DNA from: Pseudomonadota bacterium
GTDB taxonomy: Bacteria; Pseudomonadota; Gammaproteobacteria; Burkholderiales; SG8-39
DNA: 10,049 bases
Reading direction: 5' to 3'
NCBI GenBank assembly: GCA_021825225.1
Contig: JAKAIH010000055.1
Coordinates: forward strand, 1-10,049
How positions within the stretch are numbered: position 1 is the stretch's first letter; every line of letters starts with the position of its first letter. Of the stretch, positions 6,758 to 9,358 are shown in pieces. Below the pieces are notes generated by a model, which had not been told where the DNA came from, did not search any database, and was given only the letters and a program-made list of their open reading frames with translations. The position numbers and the translations under genes are program-made.

Positions 6758-7153
6758 TTACCGCTTGGAGAACTGCTTTGCACGCCGCGCCTTGTGCAAG
6801 CCCACTTTCTTGCGCTCCACCTCTCGCGCATCGCGCGTCACCAGCCCGGCCTTGGACAGCGCAGGCTTGAGCGCGGGGTCGTATTCAATCAGCGCGCGAG
6901 TGAGGCCGTGACGCACCGCGCCGGCCTGACCGGACTCGCCGCCGCCATCCACGTTCACCTTGATGTCGAAAGTCTGCAGGTGATCGGTCAACACCAGCGG
7001 CTGACGCACTACCATCCGACCCGTTTCCCGGGCAAAATATTCGTCCAGCGCCTTGTCGTTGACAATGAATTTGCCTTTGCCCGGCTTGATGAACACGCGC
7101 GCCACCGAGGTCTTGCGGCGGCCCGTGCCGTAGTTGTAACTGGTCTCAGCCAT
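6758..7153 (-). CDS. rpsI: Ribosomal protein S9
   Basis: S9 is a small-subunit head protein whose C-terminal tail reaches the P-site tRNA. The 131-residue product has the family features: [14 protein letters not shown] near the N-terminus (8-21), the signature [19 protein letters not shown] (70-88), and the basic tail ending QFSKR. The ATG at 7151-7153 comes 3 bases after the rplM stop (7157-7159), with GGAG inside the end of rplM, so the two are translated together as in most bacteria. The strong terminator at 6711-6737 ends the operon. Confidence 0.98.
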
Positions 7154-7156
7154 TGA

Positions 7157-7585
7157 TTAGATCTCCAGCGCTTTGGGTTGCTGTGCAACGTGAGGGTGCT
7201 CGCCATCGGCGTACACCTTCAGTTTCTTGAACATCGCGTAGCCCAGCGGGCCCTTGGGCAACATGCCCTTCACCGCCTTTTCCAGCGCCCGTCCGGGAAA
7301 CCGCGCCTGCATCTTGCCAAAGCTGGTCTGCGAGATCCCACCGGGATAGCCGCTGTGACGATAATAAGTCTTGCCCTCACCCTTGTCGCCAGTGACCCGC
7401 AGCTTGGCGGCATTGACGACTACGATGAAATCACCCGTATCGACGTGCGGGGTATAGATGACTTTGTGCTTGCCGCGCAGGCGCCGGGCAACCTCGGTGG
7501 CGACTCGCCCGAGCACCTTGTCGGTGGCGTCGATCACGAACCAGTCGCGTTTGACTTCGTGCGGCTTGGCGGAAAAAGTTTTCAT
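7157..7585 (-). CDS. rplM: Ribosomal protein L13
   Basis: L13 is an early assembly protein of the large subunit. The 142-residue product has the full family sequence: [19 protein letters not shown] (15-33), [11 protein letters not shown] (49-59), YRHSGYPGG (75-83) and [18 protein letters not shown] (108-125). Length equals the E. coli protein (142). The ATG at 7583-7585 gives the universal MKTFSAKP start. Its leader, about 26 nt, is unusual in lacking any purine-rich ribosome site: the bases before ATG read TTTACCCCCA. It is the first gene of the rplM-rpsI operon and is driven by the promoter at 7618-7646. E. coli L13 represses its own mRNA; nothing here shows whether that holds. Confidence 0.98.
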
Positions 7586-7617: not shown

Positions 7618-7646
7618 ATTGTATGTCAGAGGCGATCAGGTGTCAA
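7618..7646 (-). promoter_or_regulatory. Strong sigma70 promoter of rplM-rpsI
   Basis: On the minus strand there is a perfect -35 TTGACA (7641-7646), a 17-base spacer and a -10 TACAAT (7618-7623, 5 of 6). It starts 33 bases after the end of the small RNA terminator and predicts a start near 7611. This gives an rplM leader of about 26 nt. Confidence 0.88.
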
Positions 7647-7678: not shown

Positions 7679-7707
7679 AAAAAAAAACGCAACTCCGAGG
7701 AGTTGCG
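7679..7707 (-). terminator. Intrinsic terminator of the small RNA
   Basis: CGCAACTC (7688-7695) and GAGTTGCG (7700-7707) form a perfect 8-bp stem with a 4-base loop. On the minus strand nine T residues follow (7679-7687). It is as strong as the terminators after erpA and rpsI. No minus-strand protein gene lies upstream of it within reach, which is the main evidence for a separate non-coding transcript. Confidence 0.9.
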
Positions 7708-7786
7708 CTGAATCCACCAAAAGGAGGAGGGTGGAGGAGACAAGCTTCAGCACTGAATGGAAAGTTTCCATCAATGCTCAAGCTTT
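7679..7786 (-). ncRNA. Candidate small RNA with anti-Shine-Dalgarno loop
   Basis: This is an RNA of about 108 nt, supported by its own promoter, three hairpins and a strong terminator, with no gene for the terminator to serve otherwise. Hairpin 1 (7742-7785) has about 19 pairs with one mismatch and one bulge. One pair is G-U only when read on the minus strand, which favours that strand. Hairpin 2 pairs TCCACC with GGTGGA (7730-7735 with 7713-7718) and shows an 11-base loop CUCCUCCUUUU (7719-7729), which contains CCUCCUUU, the octamer at the 3' end of 16S rRNA. Hairpin 3 is the terminator. CUCCUC occurs three times in the RNA: before hairpin 2, in its loop, and in the terminator arm. Known small RNAs with such loops (Neisseria sibling RNAs, alphaproteobacterial cuckoo RNAs) block ribosome binding sites. 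I cannot place this one in a named family. Predicted 5' end near 7785; expression is not shown. Confidence 0.72.
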
Positions 7787-7791
7787 GACTA

Positions 7792-7821
7792 ATTCTACAC
7801 CACCGCTTTGTTGCGGCGCAA
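7792..7821 (-). promoter_or_regulatory. Predicted promoter of the small RNA
   Basis: On the minus strand there is -10 TAGAAT (7792-7797, 5 of 6) and -35 TTGCGC (7816-7821, 3 of 6) with an 18-base spacer. The predicted start, about 7 bases past the -10, falls at 7785, exactly where the outermost pair of the first small RNA hairpin begins. The weak -35 suggests an activator. Two palindromes lie upstream (7843-7852 and 7891-7900). Confidence 0.6.
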
Positions 7822-8147: not shown

Positions 8148-8564
8148 ATGGAATGCAAGGTGAAATGGATAGACGGTGTGAGCTTCGTCGCCGAAACCGG
8201 CAGCGGGCATGCGCTGGTGATGGATGGCGCGCCTGAAGGCGGCGGACGCAACCTCGGACCGCGGCCGATGGAAATGGTGCTCCTAGGCACAGGCGGCTGC
8301 AGCGCCTACGACGTGGTTGTCATCCTGAAGAAGAGTGGCCAGGAGATCAGCGACTGCAGCGTCGAGTTGAAAGCCGAGCGCGCCGATACCGACCCCAAGA
8401 TCTTCACCAGCATCCACATGCATTTCGTGCTGCGCGGCAGGAATCTGAAAAAGTCGATGGTTGAGTCTGCGATCAAACTTTCGCACCAGAAATACTGTTC
8501 CGCCTCGATCATGCTGGGCAAGACCGCCCAAATCACCCACGACTATGAGATTGTCGCGGAGTGA
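8148..8564 (+). CDS. OsmC/Ohr-family protein (YhfA-like)
   Basis: OsmC-family proteins are small dimeric cytoplasmic proteins. Characterised members reduce organic hydroperoxides through two cysteines, but the YhfA branch has no firm function. The 138-residue product has both family cysteines, C51 in LLGTGGCSAYDVV and C117 in HQKYCSASIML, so peroxidase activity is possible. It also has the branch-typical GGGRNLGPRPMEM (31-43). Length is normal for YhfA (about 135). The ATG at 8148 has GAGG 9 bases upstream and gives MECKVKWIDGVSF. It converges on coq7 with a 133-base gap that shows no clear terminator. The second ATG at 8153 is out of frame, so the start is fairly secure. Confidence 0.9.
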   Translation: MECKVKWIDGVSFVAETGSGHALVMDGAPEGGGRNLGPRPMEMVLLGTGGCSAYDVVVILKKSGQEISDCSVELKAERADTDPKIFTSIHMHFVLRGRNLKKSMVESAIKLSHQKYCSASIMLGKTAQITHDYEIVAE

Positions 8565-8697: not shown

Positions 8698-9327
8698 TCA
8701 AACCCAGTAGGAAACCTGTGTCATTACGCGTGCGGATAGGCGCATCGCGCGTTTCACCGGCTCGGGCAACTCGGCCGCACCCAGCGCATAGGCAGTCCTG
8801 GCATGCGCGCTTTCGTCCTGCTTCATCTGTACGACAATGGCACGGGTTTTCACGTCCTGGGGTGCAAGGCGCTCCAGATGACCCTCCAGGTGCGCTTCGA
8901 CTTGGCGCTCCGTTTCGGCCAGAAACCCAAGATTCCAGCGCGTACCGAATCTGCCTGCGGCATAGCCCAAGGCCAGCGATCCCGCGTACCAGAGCGGGTT
9001 GAGCAGACTCAGCCGTCCGCCTAATTCGGTCACACGCTGCTGGGTCCAGGCCAAGTGCTCGGTTTCCTCGCGCGCTGCCTGGGCCAGCGCCCGCGTCACC
9101 GTCGGCTCTTCACAGGACAAAGCTTGCCCCTGGTACAGGGCCTGAGCGCACACTTCGCCACAGTGATTCACCCGCATCAGCGACGCCGCATGGCGCTTTT
9201 CCGCATCGGAGAGTTCCGCCTCCGGCAGCGCACCTCCAGGAAGAGGCCGTGCCGATGCCGGCGCCGAGGCCAGGGTACGCAGGACCTTGTCGAATTCGAT
9301 AATCAGTTTGTCGATGCTGTTGAACAT
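8698..9327 (-). CDS. coq7: 2-nonaprenyl-3-methyl-6-methoxy-1,4-benzoquinol hydroxylase (demethoxyubiquinone hydroxylase)
   Basis: This di-iron monooxygenase makes the last hydroxylation in ubiquinone synthesis at the membrane, in place of the flavin enzyme UbiF of E. coli. All six metal ligands of the family can be placed on the 209-residue product: E58, E88 and H91 (EETEH), E140 (AETERQ), E172 and H175 (ESAH). Their spacing matches the human enzyme apart from a 4-residue deletion before the last pair. A hydrophobic stretch near 112-123 may sit on the membrane. The start is set at ATG 9325-9327 ([13 protein letters not shown]), the usual Coq7 N-terminus. An upstream in-frame ATG at 9352-9354 would add nine residues, but it overlaps a good -10 (TACAAT, 9353-9358), so it is probably not transcribed. 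Neither start has a clear Shine-Dalgarno. Confidence 0.95.
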
Positions 9328-9352
9328 GGCAAAATCGGAAACACGTGCTTGC

Positions 9353-9358
9353 ATTGTA
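9353..9358 (-). promoter_or_regulatory. Possible -10 element of coq7
   Basis: On the minus strand, CGGCTACAATGC contains TACAAT, 5 of 6 for a sigma70 -10. It lies 26 bases before the chosen coq7 start, giving a leader of roughly 18 nt. No good -35 is seen 16-18 bases upstream. Confidence 0.45.

Follow-up and report, generated by a model that had tools for sequence, protein, structure and literature searches.

The Rfam family RF02278, named Betaproteobacteria toxic sRNA, contains double-hairpin RNAs that were described in B. cenocepacia (ncS03, ncS05, ncS27 and ncS62; PMC4603805, PMC5688073) and H. seropedicae (four RNAs, Hsnc59, 63, 86 and 107; PMC7011215). Overexpression of ncS27 slows growth, and double-hairpin RNAs are reported to be induced in glucose medium, in biofilms and during starvation. 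According to the text of PMC5688073 (Sass 2017), the control of the accumulation of RF02278-type RNAs is unknown; the same text refers to a common upstream motif, which is unnamed there and given in the supplement, and notes the resemblance to the sibling RNAs of Neisseria. These RNAs, NmsRA and NmsRB (RcoF), also combine a CU-rich linker and loop with RBS targeting, as the RNA described below probably does. Their published control runs via RelA, and a mention of PHB was not found in that text.

The B. pertussis sRNA S17 (PMC11722255) is Hfq-dependent and is cut by RNase E from a precursor of 190 nt to 67 nt. Loss of S17 leads to an increase in 91-92 genes, 70 of which have complementary sites near the RBS, and the exponential growth of E. 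coli BL21 is unimpaired by its overexpression. The S17 promoter (-35 TTGCAT) needs no activator, its authors postulated a repressor that they did not identify, and S17 is subject to Bvg-cycle control. The same authors state that S17 and RF02278 RNAs are nearly identical in Sites 1 and 2. In Alphaproteobacteria, the trans-acting sRNA MmgR (ar8) of S. meliloti has a PhaR (AniA) site in its promoter and is repressed by PhaR; MmgR belongs to a different RNA family from the RNA studied here, to which we liken it by its published description.

Here we analyse a small RNA gene located in a 10,049-nt stretch of DNA from a member of the Burkholderiales (the window). The RNA itself is of a known kind, and the part that appears to be new is a PhaR-type operator at its promoter together with a putative wiring shared by several anti-Shine-Dalgarno RNAs, phasin 3′ UTRs included.

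The window RNA is a member of RF02278

The core of the window RNA (Table 1) matches RF02278 over the full length of the model with 63.9 bits, compared with a cut-off of 50. The preliminary description of this DNA had regarded the RNA as undescribed, which the Rfam check showed to be wrong: it is an ordinary member of a known family. The match to the Neisseria family NmsRb (RF02877) is sub-threshold (31.9 bits, cut-off 52). Scores above the RF02278 cut-off were obtained for 28 of 60 relatives, a number that includes the source genome, and, in a set of 200 genomes from the order, for 74. Up to nine copies were seen per genome (G042, G136 and G232), and two of the copies in G042 lie ~380 nt apart (1646160 and 1646538).

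Table 1. Features of the sRNA locus and neighbouring genes, in window positions.
Feature	Position	Strand	Basis
sRNA, predicted full transcript of ~108 nt	7679..7786	-	promoter and terminator in the sequence; fold z -8.1
RF02278 core (linker, CU-loop hairpin, terminator)	7679..7742	-	Rfam match, positions 1-64 of 64
5′ hairpin	7742..7785	-	fold; six same-genus loci with a two-sided pair change
Linker and stem start UGUCUCCUCCA, most constant part (S17 'Site 1')	7732..7742	-	TCTCCTCCA in 78/80 loci
16S-like loop CUCCUCCUUUU	7719..7729	-	fold; CCTCCTTT in 55/80 loci
Intrinsic terminator, nine T at 7687-7679	7679..7709	-	fold, sequence scan
PhaR-type box TGCGCCGCAACA, overlapping the -35	7809..7820	-	one mismatch to TGCRNYGCASMA
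sRNA promoter, -35 TTGCGC 7821-7816, -10 TAGAAT 7797-7792	7792..7821	-	sequence
Separate promoter TTGACA-N17-TACAAT, probably of rplM-rpsI	7618..7646	-	consensus scan
rplM, ribosomal protein L13, downstream neighbour	7157..7585	-	
rpsI, ribosomal protein S9	6758..7153	-	
OsmC-family gene, divergent upstream neighbour	8148..8564	+	
coq7-family gene, beyond the OsmC-family gene	8698..9354	-	

Most of the sequence signals in the preliminary description were found again. The minus-strand elements TTGCGC and TAGAAT are present with a spacer of 18 nt, the first hairpin forms at the predicted start, the loop of the second hairpin is CUCCUCCUUUU, and CUCCUC occurs three times in the RNA. The nine T residues of the terminator are likewise there, but its stem has 10 pairs in the fold and not the eight that had been given. 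The predicted transcript folds into three hairpins with -48.9 kcal/mol (z -8.1), and none of 200 dinucleotide shuffles was as stable. The sole promoter listed by the consensus scan was TTGACA-N17-TACAAT, which sits downstream of the sRNA terminator and before rplM; the scan missed TTGCGC/TAGAAT because TTGCGC fits only three of the six consensus positions. Because a separate promoter lies between the sRNA terminator and rplM, the RNA is most likely its own gene, and the earlier prediction of a stand-alone small RNA gene is supported.

The window RNA has the core, linker, CU loop, hairpins and terminator in common with the B. cenocepacia and H. seropedicae RNAs, and differs from them in a longer 5′ part, the hairpin of which was seen in its genus only. 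By analogy with ncS27 and S17, for both of which processing was reported, the 64-nt double hairpin is probably the processed form. We found rplM in 22 of 31 sRNA loci. In named genomes, 80 rplM loci were searched for the motif TCTCCTCC, which was present within 500 nt upstream in 52; three of the 80 loci have less than 100 nt of upstream sequence. S17, known here by description, adjoins coq7, and the proximity of a coq7-family gene to the window RNA therefore suggests that the two RNAs occupy the same locus. In one locus (L009), the OsmC-family gene (match 1968-2380) is in two overlapping pieces, perhaps owing to a frameshift or an assembly error.

Structure was compared in 80 loci, of which 52 were left after thinning by similarity; L002, L031 and L092 are absent from these counts, and in a few loci (e.g. 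L005 and L141) the anchors were misplaced, which shifts the positions. The two 3′ hairpins with the terminator were present in all 52 non-redundant folded sequences, among which the terminator arms occur in 47 distinct versions. According to the stems tabulated by script, the first stem of the two-hairpin core is mostly invariant, with few two-sided changes. The 5′ hairpin was found in six same-genus loci with the two-sided change GAGCAUU/AGUGCU to GAACAUU/AGUGUU, and the other four folded loci differ. Conservation of all three stems, suggested earlier as a check, was therefore seen for the two 3′ hairpins, and for the 5′ hairpin in same-genus loci only.

The linker and stem start TCTCCTCCA is kept in 78 of the 80 loci (50 of 52 non-redundant sequences) and the loop motif CCTCCTTT in 55 (36 of 52); the loop of the Polynucleobacter loci is of the CAAACA type. 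The preliminary description had placed its emphasis on the 16S-like loop and expected it to be invariant. The loop motif is absent in 25 loci and the linker is near-invariant, which argues that the constant seed is the single-stranded linker and not the 16S-like loop. The likeness of the loop to 16S rRNA was borne out: CCTCCTTT is the end of GGCTGGATCACCTCCTTT, which occurs as a 16S-type 3′ end in 4 of 20 genomes searched. A search of the source assembly gave no match to GGCTGGATCACCTCCTTT.

A PhaR-type box at RF02278 promoters

The earlier reading of the sRNA promoter overlooked a PhaR-type box over the -35. The consensus TGCRNYGCASMA was obtained for Bradyrhizobium PhaR from footprints and promoter alignment (PMC6201568), the region protected by PhbF of H. 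seropedicae contains TG[N]TGC[N]3GCAA (PMC3206438), and R. eutropha PhaR sites follow YTKNTGCRNYGCANMAR with up to three mismatches permitted (PMC12849132). The window box TGCGCCGCAACA has one mismatch to TGCRNYGCASMA and differs at two of 17 positions from the palindrome of R. eutropha PhaR, and the box is exact in five other same-genus rplM-linked loci. Two Herbaspirillum loci, other than those of the H. seropedicae RNAs, also have it exactly. The -35 of S17 fits the start of the box; for S17 the comparison of the upstream region is by the published -35 alone.

Within 160 nt upstream, TGCRNYGCASMA was found exactly in 59 and within one mismatch in 72 of 83 sRNA loci (one of them an identical duplicate), compared with means of 0.25 and 5.1, respectively, in 20 rounds of dinucleotide shuffling. 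L002, L031 and L092 belong to this set. Because a box could lie at any point of the 160-170 nt and on either strand, some of the one-mismatch boxes are due to chance (5.1 of 83 expected). The R. eutropha pattern, with up to three mismatches, fits 71 of the 83 loci. Exact boxes were 56-fold denser upstream of the sRNA (68 in 13.3 kb) than elsewhere in these loci (23 in 251 kb), and a reversed-pattern control gave no exact box and one within one mismatch among 115 loci. The source genome has 21 box sites versus three for the reversed pattern, a count that by itself is no evidence because most of the sites fall in long open frames.

Of 30 phasin starts sampled in the order, 22 have the box around them and 27 have it within one mismatch, whereas one mononucleotide shuffle of each gave none and four, respectively. 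The phasin promoter of the source genome has two one-mismatch boxes. That the box is a mere extended -35 is disfavoured by its presence at phasin genes, by the near-zero reversed-pattern control and by loci of the Rhodocyclaceae type, in which it precedes a separate -35-like CTTGC. As far as our searches reach, the link of RF02278 promoters with PhaR is new, and no report of it was found among the papers listed in our literature searches, supplements aside.

The source genome encodes PhaR (PF07879, 109.6 bits, in a 243-aa open frame). To compare box and PhaR gene across the order, we used 200 genomes at a completeness of at least 95%, with the less complete source genome among them, and examined 115 sRNA loci, 84 in 57 PhaR-bearing and 31 in 25 PhaR-less genomes. 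For the PhaR-less set, every listed match was taken (25 of 30 genomes, the other five having weaker matches), and nine of these loci score below 50 bits. The PhaR-bearing set consists mainly of matches above 50 bits; it includes L030 of G039 (40.2 bits) and excludes G213, G240, one G042 copy and weaker listed matches. L157, in which the core was not found, was excluded from the count.

In the PhaR-bearing genomes, the box was exact in 46 of 84 loci and present within one mismatch in 63. None of the 31 loci of PhaR-less genomes had the box, either exactly or within one mismatch, and the same holds for the 22 of these loci with at least 50 bits. Counted by family group, an exact box was found in 14 of 19 PhaR-bearing versus 0 of 9 PhaR-less groups (Fisher p 5.8e-4), a comparison in which two families appear in both lists and the groups are not independent, since the PhaR-less loci of the nine groups may stem from few losses of PhaR. 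The Polynucleobacter loci L082, L023 and L025, with neither box nor PhaR, are counted in favour of the link. The PhaR-less loci carry the dyad TTAGANNATNCTAA instead, which was present within one mismatch in 28 of 31 loci versus one of 84 in PhaR-bearing genomes (in G164). This dyad (e.g. TATTAGATAATTCTAATA) surrounds the -10 in the PhaR-less loci L159-L184, L147, L150 and L158.

The association has exceptions in both directions. Of the 84 loci in PhaR-bearing genomes, 21 had no box within one mismatch. Among the six loci from Cupriavidus/Ralstonia, five (L037-L040 and L043) lack the box at the promoter, with PhaR in their genomes; L039 and L043 have one-mismatch boxes located 29-37 nt ahead of the core. 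The single mismatch of the window box to the strict consensus and the alternative dyad in PhaR-bearing G164 also count against the link. L111 and the same-genus locus L020 are without a box although PhaR is present. Conversely, the genomes G003 (89% complete), G069 and G097 have a box, and PhaR was not found in them.

Proposed control by PhaR and alternative readings

We consider it likely that the window RNA is an RF02278 sRNA with its own promoter and terminator that pairs with ribosome binding sites, and that a PhaR operator keeps it repressed until PHB granules titrate PhaR. When PHB is lacking, PhaR would sit on the -35 or immediately upstream of it and block the promoter; when PHB granules form, PhaR would be drawn onto them and the RNA would be made. 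The transcript would then be trimmed to the 64-nt double hairpin, which would probably be bound by Hfq, and the CU-rich linker and loop would pair with ribosome binding sites and lower the translation of many messages for transport and catabolism. RBS targeting, Hfq binding, trimming and any slowing of growth are proposed here by analogy with the published relatives. The preliminary description had proposed a post-transcriptional regulator of many messages; this mechanism gains support from ncS27 and S17, for which action at the RBS is either reported or predicted, and we retain it as probable.

The steps that involve PhaR are proposed because of the operator and the published work on phaP1 and MmgR; we infer from these both the binding of PhaR at sRNA promoters and the direction of control. 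The sign of this control is uncertain, because PhaR can also activate, as reported for phaP3 (PMC12849132). That double-hairpin RNAs are reported to rise in glucose medium, in biofilms and upon starvation fits PhaR control, and the S17 promoter, described as independent of an activator and postulated to be under a repressor, fits repression by PhaR. If the proposal is true, some bacteria brake protein synthesis while they fill their carbon stores, and the widespread, growth-slowing RF02278 RNAs would have, in the PhaR operator, a named regulator with a known signal. Two conserved systems, the sensing of carbon stores and RBS-pairing RNAs, would then be joined, in parallel with the PhaR control of MmgR in Alphaproteobacteria.

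PhaR binding at the box is read from sequence, and a conserved upstream dyad could instead be bound by another regulator, with the match to PhaR sites being a coincidence or a type of site that is shared. The loci without a box in PhaR-bearing genomes, including those of Cupriavidus/Ralstonia, would suit such a regulator. We regard it as unlikely, however, since the consensus stems from PhaR footprints made elsewhere and the match extends to its length and asymmetric tail. The box also stands by 22 of 30 phasin genes and at none of the 31 loci of PhaR-less genomes, and the reversed pattern yielded no exact and a single one-mismatch box in 115 loci.

Two further readings concern the element rather than its promoter, and we give both of them very little credence. 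A role as 5′ leader of rplM-rpsI, or as its attenuator, would explain why the element lies on the strand of rplM, ~90 nt upstream, and why rplM is found in 22 of 31 sRNA loci, but the strong terminator is followed by a separate promoter ahead of rplM in the consensus scan, and the leader was set aside on these grounds. Moreover, rplM is not in nine of the 31 stretches (some of which are short), several sRNA copies occur in some genomes, and the relatives are expressed as short RNAs. It is similarly improbable that the loop works chiefly by mimicking the 16S 3′ end as a decoy, that is, as a global, toxin-like RNA that titrates Shine-Dalgarno sequences unspecifically or binds a protein of the 16S end. 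The identity of CCTCCTTT with the 16S end of relatives, the designation of the family as toxic and the slower growth upon ncS27 overexpression would be in keeping with a decoy, which is weakened because, of 80 loci, 25 are without the loop motif and 78 retain the linker. For S17, overexpression was harmless to the exponential growth of E. coli BL21, and its deletion raised a limited gene set in which 70 of 91 genes have matching sites.

Other anti-Shine-Dalgarno RNAs and phasin messages

A scan of the source genome for TCTCCTCCNCC gave 18 sites, compared with five for the reversed pattern. By inspection, five of the 18 are hairpin-plus-terminator elements, namely the window RNA, two ar14-like RNAs (C157 and C414), the 3′ UTR of a phasin gene (C151) and an RF02278-like element with 29.3 bits (C227), which is convergent with a tRNA gene. 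A box with at most one mismatch within 200 nt upstream was found for three of these five elements versus two of the 13 other sites; the C227 element has no box in that range.

The two extra RNAs resemble alphaproteobacterial ar14 (RF02344), which consists of a hairpin with a CUCCUCCUCC loop and a terminator, and score 27.5 and 32.6 bits against it, below the cut-off of 58.8. Among 80 family genomes searched by pattern, ar14-like RNAs were found at nine loci in six genomes of the genus and not outside the genus. All nine have a box within one mismatch 39-40 nt upstream, seven of them exact, and in eight a second box follows ~90 nt further upstream. The ar14-like RNAs at L121 (1500-1612), L130 (1395-1513) and L292-L300 are double hairpins with the loop UCCUCCUCCUCCUUU, with up to three per genome.

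In other families, too, there are phasin messages with an anti-Shine-Dalgarno hairpin at their end (L239/L270, L268/L269 and L243, and L271 from outside the sample of 30). A text search of 30 phasin 3′ UTRs gave five matches, and the count after inspection was four of 30. We set aside L251, in which the match lies ~90 nt down, behind a terminator-like hairpin, and L266, in which the context is different; L243, which has TGTCTCCTC and not the search string, was added by eye. Phasin 3′ UTRs with a CUCCUCC hairpin and terminator were seen in L246 (1119-1230, C151 of the source genome), L269, L270, L271 and L243, the last with UGUCUCCUC. Judging by its sequence, the phasin 3′ UTR hairpin is a possible source of a 3′-UTR-derived sRNA.

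Under PhaR control, carbon storage would release several RNAs that brake translation: the RF02278 RNA, the two ar14-like RNAs and, if it is set free from its message, the phasin 3′ UTR hairpin. With some reservation, we lean towards a broader proposal, in which, across much of the order, PHB storage has direct control of such anti-Shine-Dalgarno RNAs. PhaR would repress the RF02278 genes and, within this genus, the ar14-like genes, some phasin messages could give off an sRNA from their terminal hairpin, and the formation of granules would slow translation for uptake and catabolism. In this proposal, PhaR is the repressor postulated for S17, and PhaR-less lineages swapped the operator for TTAGANNATNCTAA. 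If true, this operator swap would show how one RNA was put under a new signal.

RF02278-like elements of another build, with UGUCUCCUCCUCCC within the loop of one hairpin, were observed at L002 (1488-1562) and L031. The L002 element is convergent with a tRNA gene, and elements of the L002/L031 type are without a PhaR-type box.
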